Made by a program: the position numbers and the translations under genes. From Rhodobacter sp. SY28-1 (GTDB taxonomy: Bacteria > Pseudomonadota > Alphaproteobacteria > Rhodobacterales > Rhodobacteraceae): a stretch of DNA of 64,000 bases. Of the stretch, positions 37,381-61,614 are shown one piece after another; positions within the stretch are counted from its first letter, which is position 1, and each line of letters starts with the position of its first letter. The notes beneath the pieces were generated by a model. That model saw only the letters and a list, made by a program, of their open reading frames with translations. It was not told where the DNA came from and did not search any database. Location of the stretch: positions 1,178,001 to 1,242,000 of the forward strand of contig NZ_STGH01000001.1 of the NCBI RefSeq assembly GCF_005222785.1. Reading direction: 5' to 3'.

Positions 37381-37402
37381 TGCCCGGCCCGAAGGCCGGG
37401 CA
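37381..37402 (-). promoter_or_regulatory. Intercistronic hairpin after the aromatic-operon binding-protein gene
   Basis: Read on the minus strand, TGCCCGGCC, TTCG, GGCCGGGCA is a perfect 9-bp stem with a UUCG loop, 7 bases beyond the binding-protein stop. It matches the placement and loop of the hairpin after aapJ. Confidence 0.72.
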
Positions 37403-37408
37403 GGGGGG

Positions 37409-38683: not shown

Positions 38684-38702
38684 GGATAGTCCTCCCATTT
38701 GG

Positions 38703-41370: not shown

Positions 41371-41382
41371 GATCGTGTCCTT

Positions 41383-42270
41383 TCACATCGTGGTTTCGGG
41401 GTTTGCCCCGCCCGCGTGGCCATCGCGGACAAGAACGAGAGTGAGGTCCAGTGCGTGTTTCGCAGTCCCGCCCGGGGGCAGGCTGCGAAACTCGGCCAGA
41501 AGTTCGGGCCGCACGCCGAACAGCGCATCGCGGCCGATGGCCGGGTCGTCCCTGTCGAAGACATGGGTGACGAGTGTCCGGAAGCCGGGGGCCGTCACCT
41601 TGAAATGGACATGCGCGGGACGCTCCAGCCGCAGGCCAAGGCGGTTTACAAGGCGACCCACCGGGCCGTCCTCGGGCAGGAAATAGCCGCGCGGCTTGAT
41701 GGTGCGGAAGGTGAGGCGGCCTTGCGCGTCGGCCCGCATCCGGCCGCGCAGGTTGAATTCGGGCTGCAGGTCCGGGTCCTGGTTTTCATAGCGGCCATGG
41801 GCGTTGGCCTGCCAAACGTCCACCAGCGCATCGGGAACCGGGGCGCCCTGCAGTTCGGTGACGCGGAGGGAGACCTCCATCGCCTCGCCCACCCCGTCGC
41901 GCGACAGGTTTGACCCGGGAGGCATTTCCGGGACGTCGGCACGGTAGAACGGGCCGGCCAAGGTCATCGGCGTCGCACCTGACGGGCAATCCGCATGCAG
42001 TTCCTCCACCCGGGTCGAGACGCCGATCACATCGGCCAGAAGCACCCATTCCTGCCTCCGGTCGTCCGAGGCGTGCCCGACCTCGGTCAGGAATTCGACG
42101 ACATGGCGCATTTCGGCCGGCGAGGGTTTCAACTCGACCACCAGGTCATGGATGCGCCGCACGATGGCCAGAAGCGACAGGCCCAGCCTTTCCGTCTCGG
42201 CCGCGGCAAGGCGCAAGCTGAGTTCGTCCAGCACGTCGGTCTGCCGCTTTTCGGGGGTCGATCCGTCCAT
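41383..42270 (-). CDS. Intradiol ring-cleavage dioxygenase, hydroxyquinol type (copy 2)
   Basis: The 295-residue protein is the first gene of the operon and a diverged paralogue of the enzyme at 30834. Iron ligands appear as Tyr in GRYENQ and RGYFLP and as the His pair in RPAHVHFKV. The PSGATPMTLAGPFYRADVPE segment replaces PSGASESTVLGPFHVADAPD of copy 1, so substrate range may differ. It is transcribed divergently from the LysR gene 93 bases away. Confidence 0.88.
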   Translation of the reverse strand: MDGSTPEKRQTDVLDELSLRLAAAETERLGLSLLAIVRRIHDLVVELKPSPAEMRHVVEFLTEVGHASDDRRQEWVLLADVIGVSTRVEELHADCPSGATPMTLAGPFYRADVPEMPPGSNLSRDGVGEAMEVSLRVTELQGAPVPDALVDVWQANAHGRYENQDPDLQPEFNLRGRMRADAQGRLTFRTIKPRGYFLPEDGPVGRLVNRLGLRLERPAHVHFKVTAPGFRTLVTHVFDRDDPAIGRDALFGVRPELLAEFRSLPPGGTAKHALDLTLVLVRDGHAGGANPETTM

Positions 42271-43874: not shown

Positions 43875-44294
43875 TCAGGTCAAGCGGGCCAGCAACGCCT
43901 TCAGAATGGCCTGTTCCTCGGGCGACAGGGGGTCCAGAGTGTCCGCAGACACCTTCAGCGCGGTCGACGAGCGCGCCGCAAAAAGCGTCGCTCCGGCATC
44001 GGTCAGGCTGACGGTCAGGCGGCGGCGGTCGTCCGGGTCGGCCGCGGTGGCGACAAACCCCAGCCTTGCCAGTCTGTCCACGACGCCCTTGATCGTCGCT
44101 GCATCCATTGCCGTGGCTCTGCCAAGGTGATTTTGCGACTGCGGCCCGGATTCCATCAGCCTGGCAAGAACCGCGAACTGCGTTGTGGTCACCTCGGGGA
44201 TCGCGGCGGCGAAGATCGCCAGATGTCGCTGCGTCACCCGTCGCAGGACAAAGCCGATCTGGTCATCAAGGATATAAGGCTCTGCCCTATTCAT
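43875..44294 (-). CDS. MarR-family transcriptional regulator
   Basis: The 139-residue winged-helix protein has the MarR layout: N-terminal dimer helix DDQIGFVLRRVTQRHLAIFA, recognition region TAMDAATIKGVVDRLARLGF and wing RDxRR-like DPDDRRRLTVSLTDAG. It diverges from the Mo-hydroxylase operon, with an inverted repeat in the shared 100-base promoter region. It is probably a repressor relieved by the substrate of that operon. Confidence 0.9.
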   Translation of the reverse strand: MNRAEPYILDDQIGFVLRRVTQRHLAIFAAAIPEVTTTQFAVLARLMESGPQSQNHLGRATAMDAATIKGVVDRLARLGFVATAADPDDRRRLTVSLTDAGATLFAARSSTALKVSADTLDPLSPEEQAILKALLARLT

Positions 44295-44394: not shown

Positions 44395-45222
44395 ATGACT
44401 GACTATGCCCGCCCCGAGACGATGACGGAAGCACTGCGCCTGATGGCCGGGGGCAACTGGCGCGTGTTGGCGGGCGGCACGGATCTTTACCCCGGAGCGG
44501 GCTCCAGACTTGCGGGGCCTCTGCTGGATGTGACGGCAATTCCCGGTTTCTCCGGGATCTCGCAGGGCGGTGGCCTGCGGATCGGTGCCGCCACACCCTG
44601 GTCGGTGATTGCTGCAGCTGATTTGCCCCGTGCCTGCGATGCGCTGCAGCAGGCTGCCCTTCAGGTTGGCGGACGGCAGATCCAGAATGCCGGCACAGTT
44701 GGCGGCAACCTTTGCAACGCTTCGCCCGCTGCCGATGGGGTGCCGCCGCTTCTGGCCCTGGATGCCGAAGTGGAATTGCTTTCGGCAGGCGGAACCCGAC
44801 GGATCGACTTGAAGGATTTTCTGTTGGGACCGCGCAAGATCGCGCTTGAACCTGGCGAGATCCTGGCCGCCATCCTGATCCCCGACAGTGCCTTACGCGG
44901 GCGGTCGGCGTTTCTGAAGCTTGGCGCGCGAACACATCTTGTCATATCGATTGCGATGGTCGCGGCGCGGTTGGAGATCGAACGCGGATACGTGTCCGAG
45001 GCCGCGGTTGCGGTTGGGTCCTGTTCGGCGGTTGCGGTCAGGTTGCCATTGGTCGAAACAGCGCTGCGCGGAAGCGCCGTGGCTGAAGCGGTTGGCAAGG
45101 TTTCCGCGCCCGACGTGCAGGAAGCGCTTGCCCCAATCGACGACGTCCGCGCGACCTCGGCTTACCGACGCGAAGCCGCCGTGGAACTGGTCCGCCGTGC
45201 TGTGGCCGAGGCGCTGGCATGA
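44395..45222 (+). CDS. FAD-binding subunit of a molybdenum hydroxylase (CoxM/NdhF type)
   Basis: The 275-residue subunit starts at ATG 44395 after CAGGGCCAGTG; an upstream ATG at 44377 is possible. FAD motifs [11 protein letters not shown] near residue 25 and [18 protein letters not shown] near 100 match the xanthine-dehydrogenase FAD family. The C-terminal CO dehydrogenase flavoprotein domain follows from about 170. It passes electrons between the [2Fe-2S] centres of its partner and an acceptor. The stop overlaps the next start (ATGA). Confidence 0.9.
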
Positions 45223-47936
45223 TTGCCTTTACGCTGAATGATGTACGCGTGACGGTGGACGCCCCACCGACCGAACGCTTGTCGGAAACCCTGCGCGAGC
45301 GACTGGGCAAGACCGGCACGAAAGTCGGCTGCGACGCGGGGGATTGCGGGGCCTGTACCGTGCTCTTGGACGGCGAAGCGGTCTGCGCTTGCCTGACCCC
45401 GGCCGCCCGCGTCGCGGGACGGAATGTGACGACCGTCGAGGCGGCGACACCTGACCTTGATCGCTTGCGCTCCAGTTTTCTGGCGCACGGAGCGGCGCAA
45501 TGCGGAATATGCACGCCCGGAATGCTGATGACGGCGGCCGAATTGCTTAAGCGGAGCCCACAGCCTTCGGCGTCAGAGGTCGAGACCGCGCTTGGCGGCG
45601 TTCTTTGCCGCTGCACGGGGTATCGCAGCATCATCGCCGCGGTCGTTGCAGCAGGACAAGCCGCGGACACTGCGGTGTCGGATGGCGGAGTTGGGGCGTC
45701 TGTCCAGCGTCTGGATGGCGCCGCCAAGGTTGCCGGTGACAGTTTTGGCGCCGACGACTGGCCCGTGGGCGTGCTGGTCGTGAAAGCCGTGCGCTCTCCG
45801 CATGCTCACGCGGCCTTCCAGATCGGCGCGCTTGAGGCGTTTCGCAGCCGCCCCGGCGTCGCGGGGATCTTCACTGTGGACGACATCCCGGGCCGCAATG
45901 CGTTTTCCGTCATCCCGCCCTTTGCCGACCAGCCCGCGATTGCGGCATCCCCCGCGCGGTTCCGCGGGGAGTGCGTGGCTTTGGTCGCGTTCGAGCCTGG
46001 CGCCGATCCTGACCTGTCGGGATTTCCGATCCGTTGGGACCCTCTGCCAGAAGTGACAACGCCGGAAGAAGCTGAACGGGCGAAACCGCTGCATCCGGGT
46101 CGCCCCGGCAACCTTCTGATCGAAGGGCGAGTGACAAAGGGGGACGCGGCCGCCGCGCTTGAAACCAGCGCGCATGTCGTCGAAGGGCAGATGACCACGG
46201 CCTTCGTCGAACACGCCTATATCGAACCCGAAGCAGGTTCTGCATGGATGGAGGGCGACACGCTTGTCATCCGGGCCTGCACGCAAGCGCCCGCAATGGA
46301 CCGCGAAGACACGGCCGCAATCCTTGGCCTGCCGATGGAACGGGTCAGGATCATCCCTTCGGCGGTCGGTGGCGGGTTCGGGTCCAAGCTCGACATTTCC
46401 CTGCAGCCGCTGATTGGGCTCGTGACACTGAAGACCGGCCGACCCTGCCGCATGGTCTATTCGCGCCAGGAGAGCATGACCTCGACCACCAAGCGGCATC
46501 CTGCGGAAATGCGCGGGCGTATTGGCTGCGACAGCAGGGGGCGGATCACAGGTGTTGAGTTCGAAGGCCGTTTCAACACCGGGGCCTATTCCAGCTGGGG
46601 GCCGACGGTCGCAAACCGTGTGCCCGTCCATGTGTCGGGTCCCTATCTGACACCGAACATCACAGCCAGGGCGCGGGCGATCCATACCCATGGACCTGTA
46701 TCGGGGGCCTTCCGGGGGTTTGGCGTTCCGCAAGGGGCGCTCTGGCAAGAGACGCTGTATGATCGTCTGGCCGAGAAGGCCGGTCTGGATCGGCTTGAGT
46801 TCCGCATCCTGAACGCACTGCGCGATGGCGATGTCACGGCAACCGGACAGAGCTTGCGGGCGACCGGGATTCACGACTGCCTGACGGCGCTGCGCCCGCA
46901 CTGGACACGCGCCTTGGCCGAGGCCGGTCCGGGGCGCGGGGTCGGCGTCGCATCGTGCTGGTATGGCTGCGGCAACACGGCGCTGCCCAACCCCTCGACG
47001 ATCCGCATCGGGATTTCGCATCAGGGCGAGGTGGTCCTGCATCAGGGCGCGACGGATATCGGACAGGGGTCAAACACCGTCATCGCCCAGATTGCCGCCG
47101 AAGCCCTGGGGCTGCCGCTGTCGAATTTTCGCCTGGTCGGGCCCGATACCGCGCTGACCCCCGATGCGGGAAAGTCATCGGCCAGTCGGCAGACCTATGT
47201 CACAGGCCGGGCAGCCAAGGCCGCAGCAGAAGGCTTGCGCGCCGCGATCCTGCGCCGGGCGAATGCAGGTCAGGGGGCCGTGTTGTCGCTAGAAGGGTCC
47301 TCGCTGCTTGTTCGCACGGGCGCGACGTCCAACCGGCTTGACCTTGCCACCCTGCCGCCTAATCCCCACGGCCTCGCCCTGTCGGCCGAGGCAACCTACG
47401 ATCCGCCGACCACACCGCTTGACGCCAACGGTCAGGGCGCGCCCTACGCGGTCTACGGCTATGGCGCGCAGATGGTCGAACTGGAAGTCGATCAGGCACT
47501 GGGAACCGTCCGCCTGTTGAAGATCACCGCTGTGCATGACCTGGGCCGGGCGATCAATCCGATGCTGGCTCGTGGCCAGATCGAGGGCGGCATCGCGCAG
47601 GGCATCGGCCTTGCCTTGATGGAAGAATATCTGCCTCACCGGACAGAGAACCTGCACGACTACCTGATCCCGACCTTCGGCGATGTGCCACCCATCGAAA
47701 GCATTCTGGTCGAAGTGCCCGATCCCGAAGGTCCGTTCGGCGCCAAGGGCCTGGGTGAGCATGTGCTGATCCCGACCGCCCCCGCGATCCTGAATGCGAT
47801 CCGCCATGCGACGGGCGTGGAGATCACCCAAGTCCCCGCGCTACCGCACCGACTGCGCGCGGCAATTGATGCGCAATCCTCTGTCCCCAACTATACTCGG
47901 GGTCTTGAGGGTGATCCCCAAAAGGTGGCCCGATGA
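45219..47936 (+). CDS. Fused [2Fe-2S]/molybdopterin hydroxylase (xanthine dehydrogenase family)
   Basis: The 905-residue protein joins two usually separate subunits. Residues 1-150 are the iron-sulfur part: C38, C43, C46 and C58 for the plant-type cluster, and C95, C98, C130 and C132 for the second. From about 165 on comes the molybdopterin part, with [10 protein letters not shown] near 495, [20 protein letters not shown] near 610 and the active-site glutamate loop GAKGLGEHV near 845. The size and order recall single-chain aldehyde oxidoreductase of Desulfovibrio, but here an FAD subunit is encoded upstream. It likely hydroxylates an N-heterocycle or oxidises an aldehyde; the substrate is unknown. 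Confidence 0.9.
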
Positions 47937-49366
47937 CCGAGGCGCAGGAAAAGATCCGATGCGATGCCTGCCCGGTGATGTGCTACATCGCGCCCGGACA
48001 GACCGGGGCATGCGACCGCTATGCCAACGAGGGCGGGCGGATCGTGCGAACCGATCCGGTTGTGATGCTGTCGCATGCGGTCGAGGCCGGGGGGTGGGTA
48101 GTCCCCTTTGCCGTGCGGGACTGGGACGGATCGCCCGTGCCCGCCGATGCCTTTGTGACCGGGATCGGCTCCGGTACAACCTATCCAGACTACAAGCCTG
48201 CGCCCTTCATCGTGTCTTCACATGTAGATGGCGCGGATATGGTCACGGTCGTGACAGAGGCGATCTTTTCCTACTGCGGGGTCAAGGTGAAGATCGACAC
48301 CGACCGCTTCCTGGGTCCCGAAGGCGCGGTGGTCCGGGTTGAAGGAGAGCCGGTCGGCCATGTGACCACCGCAGAGTACGGCTCGCAAATGCTGTCGCTT
48401 GGCGGGGTCCATCACCTGACTGGCGGTGGCAAGGCGGAAGGCAGGATCACTTGCGCCGCCATGCTGGCGCTTTGCAACGGCGAAGCGGTCGAGATGGAGA
48501 TCGAAGGCGGAAGCCGCGTCACGGTCCAGGCGGGCAGGGCGCCCATCGTGGATGGGGTGCAGGAACGCCGGATGCGGGTCGGCTGCGGCTCGGCCACGAT
48601 CGGCATGTTCGCCGTGCAGTGGCAGGGGCTGGTGGACGAAGTGGTGGTGGTCGATGACCACATCACCGGCGTGGTCAGCGAGCATCAGGCCGGAAAGGTC
48701 ATCGGCTGGGAGCCGACCGGGATCAAGATCAAGGGTCACCGGTCCACACCGGGCCGCTACTTCCGGGTCTCGGAGCCTGGGCAGGGTTGGGGCGGAACCC
48801 GGCTGACAGACCCGCTGGAGATCCTTGGCGACTGGAACCCCAAGAAGGGCGCGCGGCCGGGCTTGCGTTTGCTGATGGTGTCCACGACGGGCGAGGAGTT
48901 TGCTTACTATGTGCTGGACGCGGGCTTGCATCCGGTGCGGCAACCCTTGCCCGACAGCCTGCGGAAGTCGGTCGATCTCATTGCGGAGAATTGCGAGCCA
49001 TCGCTTTGCACGGTCCTCTTCATGGGGGGTGCGGGGGGCAGTCTGCGGGCTGGGGTGACCAAGAACCCGGTGCGTCTCACACAGTCGGTGCAGGGACGGG
49101 TTACACGCCTGACCAGCGGCGGGGCCGAGACGTACGTCTGGCCCGGTGGCGGCATCACCTTCATGGTGGACGTGACGCGCCTGCCGAAAGGTGCCTTCGG
49201 CTATGTGCCGACCCCGGCGCTTGTTGCGCCCCTGGAGTTCACCTTGCCGCGTGATGCCTACCTGGCGATGGGCGGGCACGAAGACAGCATCCGCACGCTC
49301 GTCCAGTCAGTGATCGAGGGTGGCGAGTACCCGACTAGTGCAAGGGTCGAACCATGGCCCGAATGA
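47933..49366 (+). CDS. 6-hydroxynicotinate reductase-like iron-sulfur protein
   Basis: The 477-residue protein has an N-terminal cysteine set C10-x2-C13-x3-C17-x9-C27 ([20 protein letters not shown]), suited to a [4Fe-4S] cluster. The rest matches, from memory, proteins annotated as 6-hydroxynicotinate reductase, named after the Eubacterium barkeri enzyme that reduces 6-hydroxynicotinate to the tetrahydro-6-oxo form. No flavin motif is evident. It overlaps the Mo-hydroxylase gene (ATGA), so it probably acts on that enzyme's product. The actual reaction here is not established. Confidence 0.72.
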
Positions 49367-50307
49367 GCAGCGTCCGTGAAAGCGGGCGGCCCGACTGGCG
49401 CCCACAACCGCCTGCCAATTTGCCGCGTACCGCTTTGGCCAAAGAGCCTTTGCCGGGGAAAGGCGGCGGCGCCTATCCCGGAAGTACCGCAATTGCGGCC
49501 CTCCTTCCCGGGGGTCGGCTGCATTTGCAGCACGGTCCGATCGACATCGTGGCCGAAGCCTTTGGCGAGGTGTCTGCCGTGCGGGCGGGATACGCACGGG
49601 CCGCCGCGCGCTTTGCGACCGTGCTTGAGGAACTGGTGGCCGAGCTTCCCGCCTTGCGCACCGATGGCGCCGGGGTCGAAGGCGCGATCGCCCGGAGCAT
49701 GACCGCTGCGGTTGCCCCGTTCCGGCCCGCATTCATCACCCCGATGGCTGCAGTCGCGGGGGCTGTGGCCGAGCATGTCCTGGCCGCACTTGTCGGAACG
49801 GGGATCACGCGGGCCTATGCGAACAACGGCGGCGACATCGCGGTCTGGCTTGACCGAGATGAAAGCCTGACCTGCGCGCTGGCGGTGACCGGCGGGATAG
49901 ACCGGGTGACGCTGCGCGGCAGAGATCCGGTTCGGGGCATTGCGACCTCGGGTTGGCGTGGGCGGAGTTTTTCGCTTGGCGTCGCCGATGCGGTGACGGT
50001 GCTCGCGCGGACGGCGGCGATGGCCGACGCCGCCGCGACGATGATCGCGAATGCGGTGGATCTTGACCATCCGGGAATCGTGCGGCGTCCGGCGCGGGAC
50101 CTGCAATTGGACAGCGATCTTGGCGACCGGCTGGTGACAGTCGAAGTACCGGCGTTCTCTGCTCAGGACAGGGCGCGGGCGCTTGATGCGGGACTTGCCG
50201 CCGCGGAAGCGTTCCGGGCGCGCGGCTTGATTGAAGGGGCCGCACTTTTCTTGCAGGGTGAAACCAGGGTGAGTGGGATTTCCTCTTTGGAGGTGACGGG
50301 TGGCTGA
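49354..50307 (+). CDS. UPF0280 family protein
   Basis: The 317-residue protein belongs to UPF0280, related to ApbE-type flavin transferases. The segments GPIDIVAEAFGEVSAVRAGY, FITPMAAVAGAVAEHVLAAL, YANNGGDIAVWL and GRSFSLGVADAVTVLARTAA are typical. AAGGG lies seven bases before ATG 49354, favouring it over ATG 49363. UPF0280 genes often neighbour the reductase-like gene (from memory). It could attach or handle a flavin cofactor for that enzyme; this is inference. Confidence 0.82.
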   Translation: MARMSSVRESGRPDWRPQPPANLPRTALAKEPLPGKGGGAYPGSTAIAALLPGGRLHLQHGPIDIVAEAFGEVSAVRAGYARAAARFATVLEELVAELPALRTDGAGVEGAIARSMTAAVAPFRPAFITPMAAVAGAVAEHVLAALVGTGITRAYANNGGDIAVWLDRDESLTCALAVTGGIDRVTLRGRDPVRGIATSGWRGRSFSLGVADAVTVLARTAAMADAAATMIANAVDLDHPGIVRRPARDLQLDSDLGDRLVTVEVPAFSAQDRARALDAGLAAAEAFRARGLIEGAALFLQGETRVSGISSLEVTGG

Positions 50308-50881
50308 ATTCGCGGTGCGCAAGATATTGCTGCAGATCGAGGAGATCCGGCACGAGGGCGGGCCGGTCGCAGAGCCTCCGCCGGTTCGGGGCGCGATTTA
50401 TGCGATCTGCGCCAACCCGTTTGCGGGACGCTATGTGCCCGACCTGCAGTTCGCAATGGAAACGCTGAAGCCGCTTGCGCTGGACCTGACCGATCGGCTC
50501 GTGGCCGCATTGGGCGGGCGGACGGGCATCGATGCCTACGGCAAGGGTGCGATCGTTGGCGAAGCCGGTGAAAGCGAACACGGGGCGCTCTGGCACGTCG
50601 CGGGCGGCTACGGCATGCGCGAGCGGCTTGGCGAGTGTCGCGCGATCGTGCCTAGTGCGATGAAAGTCGCGGGCATGGGCGCGACGCTGGACATTCCGCT
50701 GGGGCATCTGAACGCGGCCTATGTCCGGTCGCGTTTTGACGTTATCACGGTCACCTGCCCTGATGGCCCGCGCAGTCATGAGGTTCTCTTTGCGCTTGCA
50801 ATGGCGCGCGGGGGACGCGTCCATTCGCGCATGGGCGGTCTGGAGATCGACCAGGTGAAGGGGGAGGATGGGTTGCGGTGA
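50300..50881 (+). CDS. DUF1185 (amino-acid synthesis) family protein
   Basis: The 193-residue protein matches PF06684. It has a GTG start with GGAGG six bases upstream, and YAICANPFAGRYVPDLQFAM, DAYGKGAIVGEAGESEHGAL, AMKVAGMGATLDIPLGHLNA and VITVTCPDGPRSHEVLFALA in order. Structures of this family show a chorismate-mutase-like trimeric fold, and a role in amino-acid or amide chemistry has been suggested; no reaction is proven. It overlaps the UPF0280 gene and the membrane-protein gene, so it belongs to the same pathway. Confidence 0.85.
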   Translation: MAEFAVRKILLQIEEIRHEGGPVAEPPPVRGAIYAICANPFAGRYVPDLQFAMETLKPLALDLTDRLVAALGGRTGIDAYGKGAIVGEAGESEHGALWHVAGGYGMRERLGECRAIVPSAMKVAGMGATLDIPLGHLNAAYVRSRFDVITVTCPDGPRSHEVLFALAMARGGRVHSRMGGLEIDQVKGEDGLR

Positions 50882-52284
50882 GGGTCAGACCGGGCGCAGA
50901 CCGCAAGGGGGGCTTCTGCCGGGGATTCGGCAGGCGTCTTGGTCTTGCGGGCGTCGCGGCAGTTCTAGTTCCGGGGGTGGGCTTTGCCTGCGCCCTGCCG
51001 CCATCGGTGATCCTGACGCTGCCCACGGGTCATTACATCACCGCCGCCGCACTGACCGTTGCGCTGACGGCAGTCCTTGGGGCCATGGTCCACCTGATGC
51101 CTGCAATGGAGGAGCGGCTTGTCTGGGAAAGACCGGTCATCCTGCCCGATACCGTGACCTCCTATCTGGCCTTTCTCGTCTTCCTCGGCCTGATCTTCGT
51201 CGGTTTCTTCGGCGAGCGGGACCCGATGCACAACCTGATGACGCTGGTCTTCTGGACCGGCGTGTGGATCGCGGTGCCGTTGGCCTCAATGCTCATCGGC
51301 AATGTCTGGCGGTCAATAAATCCGTGGATTGCGCCGGTCCGGATTGCCCGGTCGCTGTTGGGTCGAACCGGTCCCATCGGGCTGTCGCGTCTTGGTCACT
51401 GGCCTGCGGTCATCGGCTATGCCGGGTTCGCCTGGTTTCAACTCGTCTCGCTCTATCCCGACGACCCGGCAGTTCTTGCCTCGGTGGCTCTGGGCTATTG
51501 GCTGGTGATCTTTGTGCTGGCTACGCTGGAGGGTGAGGAGTGGCTGGAGAAGGGCGAGTTCCTGACGCTGCTCTTTTCCCTCATCGCCAAAGTCTCTCCG
51601 CTCTGGCTTCAGGTCAGCGGTCGCCGTGCCCGGCTGATGGGCGGATGGCCAGGCACCCAGGTGCTTCGGATGCCACCACTGACGGTGTCCGCGATGGTCT
51701 TTGTCAGCCTTGCACTGGCCAGCCTGACCTTTGACGGGCTGATGGAGACGTTCTGGTGGCAGGCGCTGATCGGACAAAACCCGTTGGAGCCGACGGGACG
51801 CAGTGCGGTGATGGGGATCAACACGGTGGGGTTGCTGGCGGTCTGGGTGCTGACGCTGGCCTTGATCTTGGGTGCGATCGTGCTGGGACGTGGCATCGGG
51901 GGCGGGTTTGCCTCCGGGCCGGTCATGCTGTCGTTTCTTGCGATTGCAGCCGGCTACCATGCCGCGCATTACCTGGTGATGTTGCTGACGGCGGGCCAGT
52001 ACACGCTGGCTGCCTTGAACGACCCGCTGTTCACCGGCGAAAGCTTCCTGGGTCTGCCGCCCTACTACGTCTCGTTCGGCTTCCTGACCGACCCCCGGGT
52101 GATGCCGATGATCTACGGAACACAGTTTGCGGCGATCCTCGGCGCGCATCTGTTGGCCGTGGTGCTGGTGCTGAAACTGGCAGGCCGCGACGCAAGGCCC
52201 GTCGCACACTTGCCGATGACCGTGTTGATGGTCGCCTATACCGTTCTGGGCCTTTGGCTGCTGTCTACCGCCAGGACCGGCTGA
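50878..52284 (+). CDS. Polytopic membrane protein of the N-heterocycle locus
   Basis: The 468-residue protein has a GTG start overlapping the DUF1185 stop (GTGA), an N-terminal signal-like helix near 20-38 and about ten further hydrophobic segments. Motifs include SMLIGNVWRSINPWIAPVRI near residue 138, SRLGHWPAVIGYAGFAWFQL, ASLTFDGLMETFWW and YHAAHYLVMLLTAGQY. It resembles, from memory, actinobacterial membrane proteins that carry the label fenitrothion hydrolase, a label of doubtful value. It could be a transporter or a membrane enzyme of this pathway. Confidence 0.7.
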   Translation: MRVRPGADRKGGFCRGFGRRLGLAGVAAVLVPGVGFACALPPSVILTLPTGHYITAAALTVALTAVLGAMVHLMPAMEERLVWERPVILPDTVTSYLAFLVFLGLIFVGFFGERDPMHNLMTLVFWTGVWIAVPLASMLIGNVWRSINPWIAPVRIARSLLGRTGPIGLSRLGHWPAVIGYAGFAWFQLVSLYPDDPAVLASVALGYWLVIFVLATLEGEEWLEKGEFLTLLFSLIAKVSPLWLQVSGRRARLMGGWPGTQVLRMPPLTVSAMVFVSLALASLTFDGLMETFWWQALIGQNPLEPTGRSAVMGINTVGLLAVWVLTLALILGAIVLGRGIGGGFASGPVMLSFLAIAAGYHAAHYLVMLLTAGQYTLAALNDPLFTGESFLGLPPYYVSFGFLTDPRVMPMIYGTQFAAILGAHLLAVVLVLKLAGRDARPVAHLPMTVLMVAYTVLGLWLLSTARTG

Positions 52285-52364
52285 ATGACGGGACTTCTCC
52301 GAGGCCGGCGGGCCTCATGACAATCAAGGGCCCGATACGAGGCCGCAACAGTGGAGCGACGAAC

Positions 52365-53642
52365 ATGACGAGAAACACACTTCTTCATCCGACCCGCCGC
52401 AACTTGCTGCTTACAAGCGGTGCGGGACTTCTGGCAGCGGCGCTGCCCGGGCATGTCGGCGCGCAAGCGGCACCGATCAAGATCGGCTTTCAACTGCACC
52501 GGACCGGCATCGGGGCCAGCTACGGCCGCTGGTACGAGCGCACCGCACAGGCTGCCATCAAACTGATCAATGATGGCGGCGGCATTGGCGGCCGCCCGGT
52601 CGAAATCCTGTTTGAGGATGACGCAACCGATCCCAAGCGCGGCTCGGAAGTCGTTGACAAGCTTACCCAGTCCGATGGCTGTGACGTGGTGATGGGAACG
52701 CTCTTCTCCCATGTGGTCATCGGGTCTGCCCCGCGGGCGGGCGAACTGAAAGTGCCTTATCTCGTCTGCTCGGAAGGCTATCATGTCGCAAGCGGCATGC
52801 TGAACCGCTGGACGCTGCAGCCCGGCATCACCGACGTGCGCAGCCAGATTGCATCGATGGCGCCGTGGGTTTCGGCCAACCTTGGAAAGAAGGTCACGAT
52901 GATCTTCCCGGACTTCGCCTTCGGTCACGACCACCGCGATTTCTTTACCGCCGCGATGGCGGCCCAGGGCGGTGAAGTCATCGCGCAGATCGCGATCCCT
53001 CCGACCGAGACCAGCTTCACTCGATACTTCCCGCAGATACCTGCCGAAACCGAAGTCCTTTACCACGTCATGGTCGGCCCCGCCGTTCTGACCTTCGTCA
53101 AGGAACTGGGCGAGTTCTACGGCTCGGGCGCGAAGCCGCCGTTCTTCGGGTTCATCGACTCCTTGGAAGCGGTTGATACTGCCACTCCGGGTCTGGAATT
53201 CCTGGAAGGTAGCTATTTCTGGGAAGGCCACAACCGGGTGAAACCGGCCGACGCGGGCGAGCATGAGGCCGCCTACCGGGCCGCCGTGGGCGTCGATGAC
53301 AACGGCGCCTCGGTCAGCGATACGGCAGATGTTGCGACCTATTCCCACATGTTTTCCACTTGGGAGACGCTTTTCGCGATCAAGGCTGGCATGGAGGCCT
53401 CTGGGTACACCGGTCCCACTGACCGGCAGAAATTCGTCGAAGCGATGGAAGCGATGGCGGACCTGCCATACGGCATCGAGCGGCCGCAGGGTGCCAAGGT
53501 GTTCAACGGCAAGACCCACCAGGTCTTCGGCACGCAGAACATCTCCCAGGTCCAGGGGGGCAAGCTGATCCGCGTCCACCAGACCAGCATGGCCGATGGC
53601 GCCTATAAGGATGCCGTCGACTATACGACAATGTCCTTCTAG
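52365..53642 (+). CDS. Branched-chain-type ABC transporter substrate-binding protein, N-heterocycle locus
   Basis: The 425-residue protein starts at ATG 52365 (GGAG nine bases upstream); ATG 52318 is an alternative. The Tat-like leader TRRNLLLTSGAGLLAAALPG ends at VGAQA near residue 35. The mature domain APIKIGFQLHRTGIGASYGR is a type-1 periplasmic binding protein, close to urea/amide-type family members (GRPVEILFEDDATDPKRGSE, VVMGTLFSHVVIGSAPRAGE). It opens the importer part of the operon and is followed by a perfect hairpin. Confidence 0.88.
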   Translation: MTRNTLLHPTRRNLLLTSGAGLLAAALPGHVGAQAAPIKIGFQLHRTGIGASYGRWYERTAQAAIKLINDGGGIGGRPVEILFEDDATDPKRGSEVVDKLTQSDGCDVVMGTLFSHVVIGSAPRAGELKVPYLVCSEGYHVASGMLNRWTLQPGITDVRSQIASMAPWVSANLGKKVTMIFPDFAFGHDHRDFFTAAMAAQGGEVIAQIAIPPTETSFTRYFPQIPAETEVLYHVMVGPAVLTFVKELGEFYGSGAKPPFFGFIDSLEAVDTATPGLEFLEGSYFWEGHNRVKPADAGEHEAAYRAAVGVDDNGASVSDTADVATYSHMFSTWETLFAIKAGMEASGYTGPTDRQKFVEAMEAMADLPYGIERPQGAKVFNGKTHQVFGTQNISQVQGGKLIRVHQTSMADGAYKDAVDYTTMSF

Positions 53643-53650
53643 GGCCGAAA

Positions 53651-53676
53651 GGGCGGGCAAGGCCCGCCCAGTTTTC
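53651..53676 (+). promoter_or_regulatory. Intercistronic hairpin after the second catabolic binding-protein gene
   Basis: GGGCGGGC (53651-53658) and GCCCGCCC (53662-53669) form a perfect 8-bp stem with an AAG loop, followed by AGTTTTCC. It lies 8 bases after the stop and before the permease genes; it may be a partial terminator or mRNA stabiliser. Confidence 0.75.
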
Positions 53677-53726
53677 CGCACGATACGGGGTGGCCGTCTG
53701 GCCGCCCCCCGAATGCCTGGACCCAG

Positions 53727-54605
53727 ATGACCTTCGGACCATTCTTGCTTCTTGCCCTGATGGAAGGCCTCGTGACGGCTGCTGTCCTTGCGTTGGCCGC
53801 AAGCGGGCTGTCGCTGGTCTTCGGAGTCATGCGCGTCGTCAACGTCGCGCATGGGGCGTTCTACATGCTGGGTGCCGTCCTCGCCTGGGCAGTAGCGCAG
53901 CATGTGCCAGGCCCTGCCGCGATCGCATTTGCCGCCGCCATCATCGTCGCGCCCCTTGTCGTCGGTGCGCTGGCGGCCGCGACGGACGGGCTGATCCTGA
54001 AGCGTCTGAACTACGACCCCGAGGCGACCATCGTCGCCACCATCGGGCTTCTGTACATGATCGAGCAGGCCACGCTCAGCCTGTACGGCCCCAACGCCAA
54101 CCCGGTTCAGGCCCCGTTCGAATGGCGCATCCAGCTGCCGTGGTTCGGCTATTCCGGCTACAAGCTTTTCGTCGTCCTCGCCGCCTGTGTGGTGCTTCTC
54201 ACCCTTTGGGCCTTCATCACGCGCACCAAGGCGGGGCTCATCATGCGTGCGACGCAAGTTGACCGTACCACCGCCCGCAGCTTCGGGATCAATGTCGACC
54301 GGGTCTACATGGGCACCTTCGCCCTGGGTGCTGGCCTTGCCGCCCTTGCCGGGGTGCTGATCGTGCCAATCCAGCAGGCGCATTACCTGATGGGCGGCGA
54401 CACGCTTCTTCTGTCGTTCATCGTCGTCATCATCGGCGGGCTGGGCAGTCTGCGCGGCACCCTGATCGCCGCTATTGTCATCGGATTGTGTGACGGCGTG
54501 ATCTCGATGTTCTTTGCGCCGACGCTGGCGAAAATTCTCGCCACGCTCTTGGTCGCCATGGTCCTCGTCTTCCGCCCGCAGGGCCTGTTCGGAGCAAGAT
54601 CGTGA
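53727..54605 (+). CDS. Branched-chain-type ABC transporter permease (LivH family), N-heterocycle locus
   Basis: The 292-residue permease has LivH landmarks LSLVFGVMRVVNVAHGAFYM near residue 28 and SFIVVIIGGLGSLRGTLIAA near 230, with about eight membrane helices. It overlaps the following GTG-started permease gene by 4 bases (GTGA). Confidence 0.9.
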   Translation: MTFGPFLLLALMEGLVTAAVLALAASGLSLVFGVMRVVNVAHGAFYMLGAVLAWAVAQHVPGPAAIAFAAAIIVAPLVVGALAAATDGLILKRLNYDPEATIVATIGLLYMIEQATLSLYGPNANPVQAPFEWRIQLPWFGYSGYKLFVVLAACVVLLTLWAFITRTKAGLIMRATQVDRTTARSFGINVDRVYMGTFALGAGLAALAGVLIVPIQQAHYLMGGDTLLLSFIVVIIGGLGSLRGTLIAAIVIGLCDGVISMFFAPTLAKILATLLVAMVLVFRPQGLFGARS

Positions 54606-55534
54606 AGGTCTGGGCGCTCCACCTTGCCCTGATCGCGGCGCTGTTCACGGCGCAGTTCGTGCTGTCGCCCTATCATACCACCAACCTCGCCCGGATTATG
54701 GTGCTGGCCATCTTTGCCATGGGGTACAATCTCGCCTTCGGCTACACGGGGCTGCTGTCGCTTGGTCACGCGCTCCTCTTAGGCGCGGGGATGTATGCGG
54801 CTGGGCTTTCTGCGCAGCTTTGGGGTCTTGCTGCGGGACCCGCGTTGCTTGTCGGAACATTGGCAGGCGGCACGATGGCCGCTGCAGTGGGATTGTTAGC
54901 GCTGCGGACGGCCGGGGTCAGCTTCATGATCGTGACGCTCATGTTTGCCCAAGCCGGGTATCTGACGATCCTCTACTTCGCGCCCACGACCGGCGGGGAC
55001 GAGGGATTTACCGTCGCCGCCGCCGGCCGGACATTTGCAGGGTTCGACCTTGCCACGGACACGCCTCGCTTCCTATCGGCCCTTGCCCTTTTTGCCGTTG
55101 GCCTTCTTGTCAGCCTTGCGCTTGTACGCTCACCCTTCGGTCGGACCCTCGTGGCGATGCGCGAGAATGAAGAGCGGTCACGGATGCTTGGCTACAATCC
55201 CTTTGCCGTGAAACTCGCCGCGCTGACGATATCGGGTCTTTATGCGGGGGCAGCCGGTGCGGCTTACGCGCTGCTCTTTGGCTATGTCGGCGCAAGCTTC
55301 GCGACGATCCAGTATTCGATCCTGCCGATGCTTTATGTTCTCCTCGGCGGGGCGGGCACGACGCTCGGCCCCTTCCTTGGCGCGGCCTTGATGTTTGCGT
55401 TGATCGAGGTCGCGTCAGGCCTTACCACCGCCTATCTGTTCTTCGTCGGGCTGGCCCTGGTGGCGCTTGTCCTCTTCGCTCCGAAAGGGATCCTTGGCAC
55501 GATCCGCGAAAGGTGGGTCAAATGGCTCCCCTGA
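54602..55534 (+). CDS. Branched-chain-type ABC transporter permease (LivM family), N-heterocycle locus
   Basis: The 310-residue permease begins at GTG 54602. FGYTGLLSLGHALLLGAGMY near residue 48 and the C-terminal FATIQYSILPMLYVLLGGAG identify LivM. Its 3' end overlaps the ATPase gene by 13 bases. It forms the channel with the LivH-type partner. Confidence 0.9.
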   Translation: MKVWALHLALIAALFTAQFVLSPYHTTNLARIMVLAIFAMGYNLAFGYTGLLSLGHALLLGAGMYAAGLSAQLWGLAAGPALLVGTLAGGTMAAAVGLLALRTAGVSFMIVTLMFAQAGYLTILYFAPTTGGDEGFTVAAAGRTFAGFDLATDTPRFLSALALFAVGLLVSLALVRSPFGRTLVAMRENEERSRMLGYNPFAVKLAALTISGLYAGAAGAAYALLFGYVGASFATIQYSILPMLYVLLGGAGTTLGPFLGAALMFALIEVASGLTTAYLFFVGLALVALVLFAPKGILGTIRERWVKWLP

Positions 55535-56215
55535 TCGAGACGCACGGACTTACCCTCCATTTCGGCGGCCTGAAGGCCGTGGACGGGGTCGATTTCACGT
55601 TGCGCCCGGGGGAAATCCACGCCCTCATCGGCCCGAATGGCGCGGGCAAGACAACCTTCGTCAGCCTGCTTTCGGGGCGCCGGCTGCCCCAATCCGGTGC
55701 CATCTTGCTGGATGGAGAAGACATCAGCCGACTTCCTGCCCATGCGCGGGTCAGAAAGGGCATCGCCTACACCTTCCAGGTCACCTCGATCTTCCCGCGC
55801 CTGACTGTCTTCGACAACGTGGCTCTGGCCGTCCAGTCACATGGCGCGAAAGACTTGCCCGCGAAAACCCGCGCCGCGCTGGCCCGCGTCGGTCTGCAGG
55901 ACCTTGAGGCACAGGAGGCCCAGACCCTTTCCTACGGACACCAACGCCTTCTCGAGCTTGCGATGGGGCTTGCCCTCAACCCCCGCCTCCTGATCCTGGA
56001 CGAGCCGACGCAGGGCCTTGCCGCCAGCGAAATCGCGGGCTTCAAGTCGCTGGTCCAAGGCCTGGTCCCGGAAACCACCGTCCTGCTGATCGAGCACAAC
56101 ATCGAGGTGGTCATGGATCTCGCCACTCGGATCACCGTCCTGAACTTTGGCCAGGTTCTGGCCACGGGCACGCCAGCCGAAATCCGTGCCAACCCCGCTG
56201 TGCAGGAGGCTTATC

Positions 56216-56226
<11 letters not shown>
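55522..56226 (+). CDS. Branched-chain-type ABC transporter ATPase (LivG family), N-heterocycle locus
   Basis: The 234-residue ATPase starts at ATG 55522 with AAGGTGG well placed; GTG 55513 is less likely. Walker A GPNGAGKTT is near residue 37. The signature segment reads LSYGHQRLLELAMGLALNPR, and Walker B is LLILDEPTQGLA. The LSYG form is usual for LivG. Confidence 0.92.
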
Positions 56227-56914
<688 letters not shown>

Positions 56915-58933
56915 ATGACCGGGCTTGTCGCAGGCGTTGATGTGGGCGGAACCTTCACCGATTTGGTGATCTTTGATCCCGCGACCGGTGCGGTGCGGCT
57001 GGCCAAGGTACCGACCACGCTACCGAACCAGTCTGGCGGCGTGCTGAATGCCTTCGCCGAGGCGGAGGCGGACCTGTCCAGCATTGACCTGATCGTTCAC
57101 GGCACGACGACCACGACCAACGCCGTGCTGGAGCGGCAGCTTTCGAAGACCGGCCTCATCACGACAATGGGCTTTCGCGACGTGCTGGAGCTTGGTCGCC
57201 GTACACGCCCGCAAGCCTACGGCATGAAGGGGCATTTCGTCCCGGTCATCCCCCGCGATTTGCGCCTGGAAGTGCCGGAACGGATGGACGCACGCGGCCG
57301 GGTGCTGACCCCGTTGGACGAAGCTGCGCTTCGAAAGGCTGTGACCGAGCTTCGCGACGCAGGTTGCGAGGCGCTGGTGATCCACTTCCTGCACGCTTAT
57401 GCCAACCCGGCCCATGAAGTGCGGGCGGGCGAGATCGCAAAGGGGATCTGGCCGAATGCGTACATCACGCTGGGGCACAAGCTTCTGTCGGAAGCCCGCG
57501 AGTATGAGCGGGGCGTCACCGCCGCGGTGAATGCCTCGGTCCAGCCCTTGCTTGAACGCTATGTGGTCCGACTGGCCGATCAACTGGCCGAAAAGGGCTA
57601 TGCGCGCGACCTTCTGGTGATGAATGGCAATGGCGGGATGATTTCTGCCAAGGACGTGGCGAAAGAGGCCGTGAAAACCGTGATGTCGGGCCCGGCCTCA
57701 GGCGTGATGGCGGCAGTAGCGACGGGGCGGCGGGCCGGGATGCCCAACCTCTTGACCTATGACATGGGCGGGACCTCGACTGATGTCGCGATGATCAAAG
57801 GCGGGGTTGCGCCGGTCTCGAACGAGATCGAGGTCGAATATGCCATGCCGATCCATGTGCCGATGGTCGACGTCCGCACCGTGGGGGCGGGTGGGGGGTC
57901 CATCGCGCGGATTGATGCGGGCGGCATGTTGCGGGTTGGGCCGGAAAGCGCGGGTTCCACCCCCGGACCAGTCTGCTATGGGCGCGGCGGCACCAGGGTC
58001 ACGATTTCCGACGCGAACCTGATCCTTGGCCGCTTGCCGGCAAGCCGTTTCGGTCAGGCCGCAGAGGCAGCCTTCTCGGCGATGCAAGCGCAGATAGCCG
58101 CACCCCTCGACCTGTCCGTCGAGGCCGCCGCCGAGGCCGTCATCCGCATCGCCAACACCCATATGGCTGGCGCAATCCGGATGGTCTCGATCTCCATGGG
58201 CGCTGATCCGCGCGACTTTGCCCTGTTCGCCTTCGGCGGCGCGGGTCCCTTGCATGCCGTGGCTCTGGCAAAAGAGCTGAACGTTCCCAAGGTCCTGATC
58301 CCGGCGCGTCCAGGCATAACCAATGCCTTGGGATGTGTGTTGGCAGACCTTCGGCATGACTTCGTGCGCACGCTGAACCGTCCGCTTGATGCAGCCGACT
58401 TCGCCCATGTTCATCGCGTTCTGGCAGAACAGGAAGCCGAAGGTCGCCGCCTGATCGGCCATGAAAAGATTGCGCTGACCTCGGTTCGGACAGAGGTCTC
58501 CGCCGACATGCAGTTCGTCGGTCAAACGCATCTCTTGCGGGTCCAACTGCCCTCGGCCACACCGGACCGCGAACAGCTCCAGCGGCTTTTCGAGGCCGCC
58601 TACCGCACAAGATTCCGCGTCGATCTTCCGACGATCCGGGCCAATCTGGTGAACCTGAACGTCTCGGTCATCGGCGAGCGCCCGGCCCTGGACCTGTCGC
58701 GGTTGATCGACCCCAAGGGCAGACTGGACAAGGCTGAACCCGCCTCGCACCGCAAGGTCTGGTTCGAAAGCTGGCACGAAACGCCGGTCTACTGGCGCGA
58801 TCACTTGCCTTTGGAGATTGACCTGAAGGGGCCCGTCATAATCGAACAGATGGACACGACCGTCGTGGTGGACCCTGGCGCGCGCGTCACCTCGGATGGC
58901 GAAGGCAATCTGATTGTGGAGGTCGCGGCATGA
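56915..58933 (+). CDS. hyuA: Hydantoinase/oxoprolinase subunit A (ATP-dependent lactamase)
   Basis: The 672-residue subunit binds and hydrolyses ATP. The actin-like phosphate motif AGVDVGGTFTDLVIFD is at residues 6-21, and HGTTTTTNAVLERQLSKTGL and LTYDMGGTSTDVAMIKGGVA follow. The C-terminal hydantoinase/oxoprolinase domain ends near 670. With HyuB such enzymes open hydantoins, 5-oxoproline, caprolactam or other cyclic amides at the cost of ATP, or carboxylate ketones in the acetone-carboxylase branch. It starts directly after the transporter stop, so it is part of the same operon. Confidence 0.92.
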   Translation: MTGLVAGVDVGGTFTDLVIFDPATGAVRLAKVPTTLPNQSGGVLNAFAEAEADLSSIDLIVHGTTTTTNAVLERQLSKTGLITTMGFRDVLELGRRTRPQAYGMKGHFVPVIPRDLRLEVPERMDARGRVLTPLDEAALRKAVTELRDAGCEALVIHFLHAYANPAHEVRAGEIAKGIWPNAYITLGHKLLSEAREYERGVTAAVNASVQPLLERYVVRLADQLAEKGYARDLLVMNGNGGMISAKDVAKEAVKTVMSGPASGVMAAVATGRRAGMPNLLTYDMGGTSTDVAMIKGGVAPVSNEIEVEYAMPIHVPMVDVRTVGAGGGSIARIDAGGMLRVGPESAGSTPGPVCYGRGGTRVTISDANLILGRLPASRFGQAAEAAFSAMQAQIAAPLDLSVEAAAEAVIRIANTHMAGAIRMVSISMGADPRDFALFAFGGAGPLHAVALAKELNVPKVLIPARPGITNALGCVLADLRHDFVRTLNRPLDAADFAHVHRVLAEQEAEGRRLIGHEKIALTSVRTEVSADMQFVGQTHLLRVQLPSATPDREQLQRLFEAAYRTRFRVDLPTIRANLVNLNVSVIGERPALDLSRLIDPKGRLDKAEPASHRKVWFESWHETPVYWRDHLPLEIDLKGPVIIEQMDTTVVVDPGARVTSDGEGNLIVEVAA

Positions 58934-60609
58934 TCGACCCCGTCACCCTTGCGGTCATCCAGGCGGCCCTGCAGCAGATCTGCGACGAGATGGACTTGAC
59001 CTTCTCGCGCGCTGCCTTTTCGCCGGTCATCGCCGAAGCGAACGATCGGTCGGACGGCATCTATTCCGCCACCGATGGCAGTCTGATCGCGCAGGGGTCC
59101 AAAGGCTTGCCGGTCTTTGTGGGCGTCATGCAATTTTCGACCCGCACGATACTGGAGCGGATCGCCGCGGGCCTGACCGCCGCACCCGAACCCGGCGACA
59201 TCTACATCGTCAATGATCCCTATCTGGGCGGCACCCATCTGATGGATGTGCGCTTTGCGATGCCGGTCTGGCGCGACGGCCGGATCTACTGCTGGCTATC
59301 GAACACCGGACATTGGCCCGACACCGGGGGCGCGGTCCCCGGGGGTTTCTCCGCCAGTGCCATCAGCTCTGAACAAGAGGGGCTTCGGATCCCGCCGGTC
59401 AAGCTGTTCAAGAAAGGCGAGCTGGATCAGGAGATCTACCAGATCATCTGCTCGAACATCCGCGTGTCGGAACAACGGATCGGCGACGTCAAGGCCCAGG
59501 CCTCGGCGCTCTTGGTCGGGGCCGAGCGGCTGGGCCTCGTTCTCGATCGCTACGGCGACGCGACTGTGACCGAAGCGATTGCCGAGATGCGGAAGCTGGC
59601 AGCGCGGCAGATGCGGGCGATGATCGGCCTCATTCCGGACGGGACCTACCTGTCGTGGGCCATCGTGGACAGCGATGGGGTCGTGAACGAACCGCTGACG
59701 ATTGCCCTGGCCGTTACCAAAGGTGCAGGCGATCTGACCTTCGACTTTGCCGGATCGTCGACGCCCTGCATGGGTCCGATGAACTCGGTCCGAGCGACGA
59801 CCCTCTCGGCGGTCTATCTTGCGATGCGGCATATCTTCCCGGACGTGCCGATTTCGGCAGGCGCTTTCGAGCCGCTGGCCGTGACTGGCATCGAAGGCAC
59901 GTTCCTCGATGCTCAGTATCCCCGCCCGGTCAGCGGCTGCGCGGCCGAGGTCAGCCAGCGCATCGCCGAGGCGGTCTTTGCCGCATTAGTCCAAGCGGTG
60001 CCTGACCGGGTGACAGCAGCCCCCGCGGGCACCTCCGGCAACTTTGGCCTTGGCGGGCATGACCCGGAAAGGGGCCGCGACTATGTGATGTACCAGATCT
60101 CGGGCGGTGGCTATGGCGGCTTTGCTGAGGGCGACGGGATCTCCAACGGTTGCTCGACGATTGGCATCTCCAAGGCGCCACCCGTTGAGATCATGGAGCA
60201 GACCTATCCCGTCCTCTACCGCCGATACGCGCTCCACGAAGGCTCGGGCGGCGCAGGACAGCATCGCGGCGGGTTCGGGCTGGACTACGAGATTGAGCTC
60301 CTGCGAGGCGAGGCCAGGGCAAGTTTCGTGATGGATCATGGCCGGGTCGGGCCGCAGGGTGCTTTGGGCGGTCAGGATGGCGCCGTGAACCGGGTCGAGG
60401 TGATCCGCGATGGTGTCACGCTTGTCCCCGAGCACTTGTCCAAGGCGCAGGACATCGCGCTTAAACCCGGCGACCGGGTCCGGGTGCGCACCCCTGGTGG
60501 CGGCGGTTATGGCCCGCCTGCCGCCCGCGACCCCGCGCTCGTGGCCGAGGACGTGCGGCTGGGACGATACAGCCCAGCGGACGCCGCACGCCTTTGGCCT
60601 GACCACTAG
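58930..60609 (+). CDS. hyuB: Hydantoinase/oxoprolinase subunit B
   Basis: The 559-residue subunit is the hydrolytic partner of HyuA. IDPVTLAVIQAALQQICDEM, DIYIVNDPYLGGTHLMDVRF, CWLSNTGHWPDTGGAVPGGF and HEGSGGAGQHRGGFGLDYEI are the family markers. The start overlaps hyuA by 4 bases. The C-terminus is at the very end of the family length, and the TAG stop straddles the edge of an IS remnant (T60607 from host, AG from the element), so the last residues or stop may be new. Confidence 0.92.
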   Translation: MIDPVTLAVIQAALQQICDEMDLTFSRAAFSPVIAEANDRSDGIYSATDGSLIAQGSKGLPVFVGVMQFSTRTILERIAAGLTAAPEPGDIYIVNDPYLGGTHLMDVRFAMPVWRDGRIYCWLSNTGHWPDTGGAVPGGFSASAISSEQEGLRIPPVKLFKKGELDQEIYQIICSNIRVSEQRIGDVKAQASALLVGAERLGLVLDRYGDATVTEAIAEMRKLAARQMRAMIGLIPDGTYLSWAIVDSDGVVNEPLTIALAVTKGAGDLTFDFAGSSTPCMGPMNSVRATTLSAVYLAMRHIFPDVPISAGAFEPLAVTGIEGTFLDAQYPRPVSGCAAEVSQRIAEAVFAALVQAVPDRVTAAPAGTSGNFGLGGHDPERGRDYVMYQISGGGYGGFAEGDGISNGCSTIGISKAPPVEIMEQTYPVLYRRYALHEGSGGAGQHRGGFGLDYEIELLRGEARASFVMDHGRVGPQGALGGQDGAVNRVEVIRDGVTLVPEHLSKAQDIALKPGDRVRVRTPGGGGYGPPAARDPALVAEDVRLGRYSPADAARLWPDH

Positions 60610-61138: not shown

Positions 61139-61614
61139 GGTTCCCTGTTGCGAGTGAAACAGGGAAATCAGGTGTAAGCCTCTGCCACTGAACGAAGATC
61201 TTTCGACCGAACTGGCGAAAGTGCTGCTTTGAGGGCCCATAGAATGAAAATTCCCTGACAGTTCCCCGTTTCAGAAGAAACCGGACCAGCAACCTGATGC
61301 TCGCCACTTTCGTAGGGGCGATCAGCGTGTGGTGTCCGAAGGCTGCGCGTCTCGCGCCAGCTTGCCACTGCACAAGCCGCGGAACTTGTGGGAGAAATCC
61401 CGCACGCACAGGGATGCGACTGGAGAGATGGGAATGGGTGGCGGACCCGGAGGCCGCCATTCTTGCGTTTGCTCCCGTTGCATCCCTGAACGACGGAGTG
61501 CAAATATATCCAATAAACGCAGGCGTTTGTCGGTGTGTCGTGTTTCATGCCGTTGCATGCCACCCTGTCCTGTGTCATTCTCTTTGATGGGTATGATTGC
61601 GGGAAAATAAGAAG
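61139..61614. other. Intergenic stretch upstream of the integrase, no gene recognised
   Basis: These 476 bases hold several overlapping open frames on both strands, but none has a good start, ribosome site or family resemblance. No tRNA or tmRNA 3' end, the usual integration target, was recognised. The last 100 bases, which are A+T-rich (AATATATCCAATAAA), may include the integrase promoter and the attachment site. Confidence 0.5.

Follow-up and report, generated by a model that had tools for sequence, protein, structure and literature searches.

A HyuAB-type lactamase most likely replaces enamidase in a candidate reductive nicotinate operon of Rhodobacter sp. SY28-1

The 64-kb stretch of Rhodobacter sp. 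SY28-1 DNA analyzed here (assembly GCF_005222785.1, contig NZ_STGH01000001.1, positions 1,178,001 to 1,242,000; hereafter the window, in whose numbering coordinates are given) carries 13 plus-strand genes within 16.2 kb, at 44395-60609. Based on comparative genomics, this operon probably imports and degrades nicotinate by a reductive route that depends on 6-hydroxynicotinate reductase (Hnr), with the two-subunit, ATP-dependent lactamase HyuAB opening the reduced ring instead of enamidase. An earlier note made from the DNA letters had put the pathway forward as a candidate undescribed one, a label that can apply at most to the use of HyuAB: a reductive pathway for nicotinate has been described from Eubacterium barkeri and Azorhizobium caulinodans (excerpts of PMC9304392 and PMC3511419), and published work also covers Hnr clusters of Azorhizobium and Bradyrhizobiaceae (excerpts of PMC3511419). 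The window shares Hnr and a proposed initial hydroxylation with these routes and, with the proteobacterial clusters, an ATP-binding cassette (ABC) importer and a pair of conserved unknown genes. It differs from the E. barkeri/Azorhizobium type in that HyuAB stands in place of enamidase, for which the SY28-1 genome has no match at E 1e-20. Among the matches listed in a search of the open-access literature, outside of which subscription journals mostly lie, no statement was found that HyuAB replaces enamidase, and the HyuAB variant, well supported by co-occurrence across genomes, appears to be the new element of a known route.

Hnr clusters come in two kinds, one with HyuAB and the other with an amidohydrolase (family c4) that matches the E. 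barkeri enamidase (PDB ID: 2vun) with an E value of 2.1e-109 over query residues 14-394 of 402 and which, on this match, counts as a genuine relative of enamidase. Of the 385 genomes in a class-wide sample, 69, the SY28-1 genome included, contain a relative of Hnr, which is nearly always full length; dropping a 34-residue fragment in G182 left 68 Hnr genomes, in one of which (G231) the match covers 273 residues only. With orthologs defined by at least 64% identity for HyuB and at least 67% for enamidase, 39 of these genomes hold a HyuB ortholog (64-100% identical) and 29 an enamidase ortholog (67-100%), none holding both and none neither. Among the matches listed, the best HyuB relative in the enamidase genomes is 46% identical, and the best enamidase-like protein in the HyuB genomes 42%. 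A second set came from a phylum-wide sample in which 32 of 398 genomes have Hnr; 27 of them were new, three of these lying outside the class and all three being of the enamidase kind. Here HyuB alone occurs in 12 genomes (70-83% identity), enamidase alone in 13 (64-79%), both in two and neither in none, giving for the pooled sets (n = 95) 51, 42, two and none, respectively. We also searched the remaining 317 genomes of the class sample, with E limits of 1e-165 (HyuB) and 1e-100 (enamidase) and the best three to four candidates per genome scored; HyuB at 64% identity or above occurs in none and enamidase in one (G082, with one internal stop), and Fisher tests on this opener specificity ignore kinship. 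Because the two genes are distributed in this near-exclusive way, HyuAB most likely replaces enamidase in an ATP-driven opening of 1,4,5,6-tetrahydro-6-oxonicotinate (THON). The contrast with the E. barkeri enamidase drawn in the earlier note was thus apt.

The exchange of openers appears to have happened repeatedly. On an Hnr tree of 66 rows (G231, short, and G339, on a long branch, were omitted), we count at least six opener switches, four of them forced by well-supported branches, and every independent pair shows the two openers changing in opposite directions; with all 68 rows there are seven switches, three forced, and three independent pairs (p = 0.25). Both opener kinds occur within families f34, f104, f1 and f70; in f1, to which SY28-1 belongs, G691 differs in opener kind from four other genomes and the window. 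In 20 of the 39 genomes HyuB and Hnr are no more than 25 kb apart, in differing gene orders, and across loci HyuAB is found downstream and codirectional, upstream, convergent or out of view. Among 101 loci with 6 kb in view on each side, HyuA or HyuB is seen in 55, enamidase in 19, both in none and neither in 27; such local absence of an opener is little informative, because the genome-wide count finds one in every Hnr genome. The HyuA and HyuB genes of G066 seem to be split, HyuA adjoining the Hnr operon and the HyuB ortholog lying ∼1.45 Mb away beside a different molybdenum (Mo) hydroxylase (L157, L158).

The sequence of the window HyuAB retains the features expected of its proposed chemistry. 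HyuA keeps the ATP motifs DVGGT (residue 9), DMGGT (283) and PGP (350), and HyuB residues D39, H103, D106 and H128 align with the metal ligands D41, H99, D102 and H124 of the caprolactamase subunit CapB; all four ligands are present in 34/34 rows from Hnr genomes (window included) and 12/12 other rows. The metal ligands of CapB, the ATP motifs of the A subunit and a suggested acid/base role for CapB Tyr136 are given in excerpts of PMC8453981, and the ATP motifs and four ligands are common to the window HyuAB and the ATP-dependent lactamases described there (CapAB, 5-oxoprolinase, HyuAB hydantoinase and IaaCE). Unlike CapAB, the window HyuB has Phe140 at the Tyr136 position (46/46 rows) and does not keep the vicinal Cys pair, and HyuA and HyuB score 494 and 307.8 bits against the NCBIfam CapA and CapB profiles, below the cut-offs of 1000 and 1000. 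Given the kept motifs and ligands, HyuAB should work like an ATP-dependent lactamase, although it does not score as a caprolactamase. The HyuA of the reductive uric acid pathway, as excerpts of PMC12507026 present it, is a different, PF01979-type protein, and that pathway was set aside.

The proteins of the operon were identified by Pfam, NCBIfam and PDB searches, with the following result (E values in parentheses):

43875-44294, minus strand: MarR-family regulator, divergent from the operon; NCBIfam MarR-family matches below cut-off.
44395-45222, plus strand: FAD subunit of Mo hydroxylase; PF00941 (5.7e-40), PF03450 (1.6e-15).
45219-47936, plus strand: fused [2Fe-2S]/Mo hydroxylase, proposed nicotinate 6-hydroxylase; PF00111, PF01799, PF01315, PF02738, PF20256.
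47933-49366, plus strand: 6-hydroxynicotinate reductase-like Fe-S protein (Hnr), by the names of matching public records.
49354-50307, plus strand: UPF0280, proposed helper of Hnr; NCBIfam NF003322, 350.7 bits against a cut-off of 290.
50300-50881, plus strand: DUF1185/AA_synth, proposed for a step after ring opening; PF06684 (5e-62), PDB 3byq (4.5e-46) and 2qtp (8.1e-42).
50878-52284, plus strand: membrane protein; no Pfam or NCBIfam match.
52365-53642, plus strand: ABC substrate-binding protein (SBP); PF13458 (1.9e-48, scanned from 52389); start chosen by eye.
53727-54605, plus strand: ABC permease, LivH type; PF02653.
54602-55534, plus strand: ABC permease, LivM type; PF02653.
55513-56226, plus strand: ABC ATPase, LivG type; PF00005, PF12399.
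56228-56914, plus strand: ABC ATPase, LivF type, assigned from its position and from conservation in tblastn; start uncertain, with an open frame from 56147.
56915-58933, plus strand: HyuA, ATP-binding subunit of ATP-dependent lactamase; PDB 7hk5 (5.5e-127) and 6yra (5.4e-117).
58930-60609, plus strand: HyuB, metal-site subunit, proposed THON-ring opener; PDB 6yra_B (2.6e-76).

The earlier note had the gene content and coordinates of this packed run right, and likewise its overlaps at most junctions: with the gene starts adopted here, 10 of the 12 junctions are overlaps or leave a gap of no more than one base, the other two gaps being 80 and 84 bases. Absent from its finding was the divergent MarR gene, which recurs with the operon in related loci. 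A promoter and terminator scan returned one and nine sites, below the 2.6 and 12.8 averaged over shuffled sequences. The importer genes span 52365-56914, with Pfam matches for four of the five, and the membrane protein travels with them: it and the SBP gene occur together in 51 loci, the SBP gene alone in four and the membrane protein alone in two.

As the earlier note had suggested looking for, the gene set recurs in other genomes. UPF0280 is present in 120 and DUF1185 in 102 of the 122 Hnr loci with at least 3.5 kb downstream; where 3.5 kb or more is available upstream (127 loci), the FAD subunit is found in 119 and the Mo hydroxylase in 118. These neighbor counts are drawn from 140 Hnr-bearing loci among L035-L197, many of them closely related and therefore not independent, and the gene context comes from a codon-usage gene call that misses some genes. 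A named collection of 70 Hnr loci is mostly from Rhodobacteraceae, plus Mesorhizobium, Aminobacter and SAR116. Within the family of SY28-1 the operon is patchy: the class sample has four further genomes of this family, all lacking Hnr, and the phylum sample has five with Hnr and at least 20 without it.

Hnr itself has no Pfam or NCBIfam match. Among 26 matching rows in plasmid records, 17 are named 6-hydroxynicotinate reductase and nine carry no such name; by family and record names the window protein is most likely this reductase. Cys 10, 13, 17, 27, 115, 174, 218 and 354 are invariant in 49 sequences. A fold search with its predicted model (predicted local distance difference test 79.3, predicted template modeling score 0.71) gave nothing credible (best E 0.008, probability 0.11), which is no proof of a new fold. 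Hnr is split in two pieces in G028 (C1:2969820-2971252, L159) and, by tblastn, in L095, reflecting either broken genes or sequencing errors.

The predicted model of UPF0280 has the fold of ApbE flavin transferases, which it shares with the ApbE-type flavin mononucleotide (FMN) transferases Ftp, FmnB and ApbE at a low sequence identity of 13-18%. Residues N157, G159-D161, D225, A228 and T229 are invariant in 50 sequences and bear some resemblance to ApbE motifs. The Hnr of E. barkeri reportedly carries a covalent flavin (Alhapel 2006). UPF0280 may serve Hnr, its likely task being to attach or handle the flavin of this reductase. Reading every second row of the Hnr alignment by eye, we saw no classic ApbE target motif; the nearest look-alike is GSAT at 219-222, whose Thr is Ala in some rows. 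The open-access literature search returned no match for UPF0280.

DUF1185 accompanies both openers and so is not specific to one of them: all 19 enamidase loci with wide flanks have it, 12 of them in two copies, as do 47/55 HyuAB loci. No DUF1185 gene was seen in L105 or L106, and enamidase lies elsewhere in the genomes of these two loci. We considered DUF1185 as an enamine deaminase peculiar to the HyuAB form and rejected this because of its occurrence in the enamidase loci. Conceivably it handles the enamine or the formyl acid after ring opening. The structurally solved DUF1185 proteins BB2672 and SPO0826 (PMC2954203) and HcdD/TgnF (PMC7913881) are of the same family and length as the window protein, which differs from them in being tied to Hnr clusters; the excerpts of those two papers give no established function, and that of PMC7913881 mentions TgnF, a homologous protein, with a citation of the trigonelline pathway paper.

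We infer the following scheme of substrate, reactions and accessory roles. The ABC importer would take up nicotinate, which the FAD and Fe-S/Mo hydroxylase would convert to 6-hydroxynicotinate. Hnr would reduce this to THON using low-potential electrons, which could come, for example, from a ferredoxin reductase encoded nearby in some relatives. HyuAB would then activate the THON lactam with ATP and hydrolyze it to 2-(aminomethylene)glutarate, from which loss of ammonia, expected on chemical grounds, would yield 2-formylglutarate. DUF1185 may aid the next step toward glutarate semialdehyde and glutarate, and MarR is probably a sensor, either of the substrate or of an intermediate. The order of import, Mo hydroxylation, partial reduction and ATP-dependent lactam opening that the earlier note had put forward is backed by comparative genomics.

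The substrate, an unspecified N-heterocycle in the earlier note, can be narrowed to nicotinate, which is most likely and which we name with fair confidence on the basis of nicotinamidase genes and of depositors' names. A nicotinamidase gene lies close to the operon in 10 loci, all 10 above the NF008623 cut-off (208-222 against 174 bits). Eight of these loci, mostly from Mesorhizobium and Aminobacter relatives, carry it upstream in divergent orientation; in L092 (SAR116) it lies downstream and in L119 (G263, enamidase kind) upstream, in both cases on the same strand as the operon. Five of the ten (L075, L078, L080, L085 and L086) also show HyuAB within view, and one shows enamidase. In four of 127 loci a large Mo/cytochrome c hydroxylase replaces the FAD and Fe-S/Mo pair. 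Depositors named it nicA/nicB in two of these (L193 and L195, both with HyuAB), a name that rests on the depositors, as NCBIfam has no deciding model for this hydroxylase; in the other two (L192 and L113) the opener is enamidase. Neither this nor the window-type hydroxylase was seen in L125 and L141-L144. The occurrence of different hydroxylases ahead of the same reductase fits one common substrate, nicotinate. In strain SG-6C, moreover, the breakdown of nicotinate and 6-hydroxynicotinate is assigned by homology to an Hnr cluster that also encodes an ABC importer and two conserved proteins of unknown function (excerpts of PMC3511419).

Several observations weigh against the reading of this operon as a nicotinate pathway with HyuAB as opener, a case that is genomic throughout. 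As to the pathway, a nicotinamidase gene is lacking next to the operon in the window, and none of the genes at this locus was recognized as a glutarate gene, the wider genome not having been searched for such genes. The Mo hydroxylase falls below every listed NCBIfam equivalog cut-off, and although its PDB relatives include nicotinate dehydrogenase (3hrd_A, 2.9e-68), aldehyde oxidoreductase and others outscore it. DUF1185 was not seen near Hnr in 20 of the 122 loci. As to the opener, the identity cut-offs were fixed only after the scores were known, but the wide identity gap between the classes means that the exact cut-off is not decisive for the 39/29 split. G489 and G554 carry both orthologs (only 2/95), the enamidase in each sitting on a contig other than that of Hnr. 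The Hnr tree offers only four independent pairs on supported branches (sign test, p = 0.125). No HyuB is present within 25 kb of Hnr in 19 of the 39 genomes, where it lies further off on the same contig in seven and on other contigs in 12, and 10 of the 317 genomes without a usable Hnr hold HyuB relatives at 50-62% identity.

One alternative is that the true substrate is a related pyridine, such as a substituted nicotinate or a trigonelline-derived or picolinate-type compound, degraded by the same logic; homarine and trigonelline themselves were among the candidates weighed. Family scores do not place the Mo hydroxylase, and a family of Rieske oxygenases (c14, whose one scanned member matched VanA_C) occurs near Hnr in six loci (L105, L106, L117, L132, L133 and L142), all from enamidase-kind genomes, where it may prepare a substituted substrate. 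The 10 nicotinamidase genes, the nicA/nicB names in two loci and the homology-based assignment of the SG-6C cluster (PMC3511419, as excerpted) point back to nicotinate, and we regard a different pyridine as unlikely.

Marginally less likely still is that HyuAB is merely linked to the operon and belongs to a separate lactam or hydantoin pathway, with THON opened by an unseen enzyme, be it UPF0280, DUF1185 or the product of a gene elsewhere. The distance of HyuB from Hnr in about half of the genomes and the existence of related HyuAB pairs without Hnr are in its favor. Phylogeny, which the earlier note had named as a possible refutation, was followed for HyuB only: in a tree made by a quick method, the clade of HyuB from Hnr genomes is common to some Hnr-less ones, four of the ten just mentioned, from one family, falling inside it (L145-L148, genomes G307, G217, G383 and G114), five outside it with two second copies, and one more distant. 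In L146-L148, by tblastn, a different Mo hydroxylase adjoins HyuAB (confirmed with Pfam in L146, where a MarR gene lies alongside). HyuAB of the same clade beside other hydroxylases shows that the clade is not confined to the Hnr pathway; this argues against exclusive use, yet it is in keeping with lactam chemistry, and L146-L148 are probably another hydroxylate-then-hydrolyze lactam pathway. Against mere linkage, every Hnr genome without an enamidase ortholog has a HyuB ortholog (39/39 in the first set and 12/12 in the second), and UPF0280 and DUF1185 accompany enamidase as well and so cannot explain its absence.

That unrelated catabolic genes came together here by chance has next to no plausibility: the upstream neighbors of the run do belong to another, hydroxyquinol-type pathway, but the same gene set recurs in differing orders across many genera. 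The neighboring operon lies at 31708-42270 on the minus strand; seven of its genes were scanned, and it encodes an FAD aromatic hydroxylase, a branched-chain-type ABC importer, an Fe-alcohol dehydrogenase, a glyoxalase-fold protein and an intradiol dioxygenase, a set we take to be that of hydroxyquinol/resorcinol breakdown. A phage-type integrase (61597-62901, plus strand) follows directly after the operon, and no tRNA was found in the window. At 4129-23515, a region of ill-defined genes, two of seven scanned proteins have PHROG matches, one of them a DNA-polymerase clamp loader, and this region is not a clear prophage.

If HyuAB opens the ring as proposed, a ring opener would be found for the 51 of 95 Hnr genomes that have no enamidase ortholog, and the HyuAB neighbors of Hnr, publicly annotated as 'N-methylhydantoinase', 'hydantoinase/oxoprolinase' or 'acetophenone carboxylase', would gain a definite substrate. 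The orphan families UPF0280 and DUF1185 would become testable. A wider reading, which we hold to be a serious possibility though not the probable one, is that an aerobic form of reductive nicotinate degradation with ATP-paid ring opening is widespread, that HyuAB opens THON in place of the non-homologous enamidase after several exchanges within Alphaproteobacteria, and that UPF0280 is a dedicated cytosolic flavin transferase for Hnr; if it were true, functions would follow for UPF0280 and a HyuAB subfamily at once. The question would then be why ATP is spent on a ring that enamidase opens without it. The breakdown of nicotinate and nicotinamide bears on vitamin B3 turnover in soil and sea, and that of 6-chloronicotinate, a residue linked to neonicotinoids, would also be concerned (excerpts of PMC3511419).

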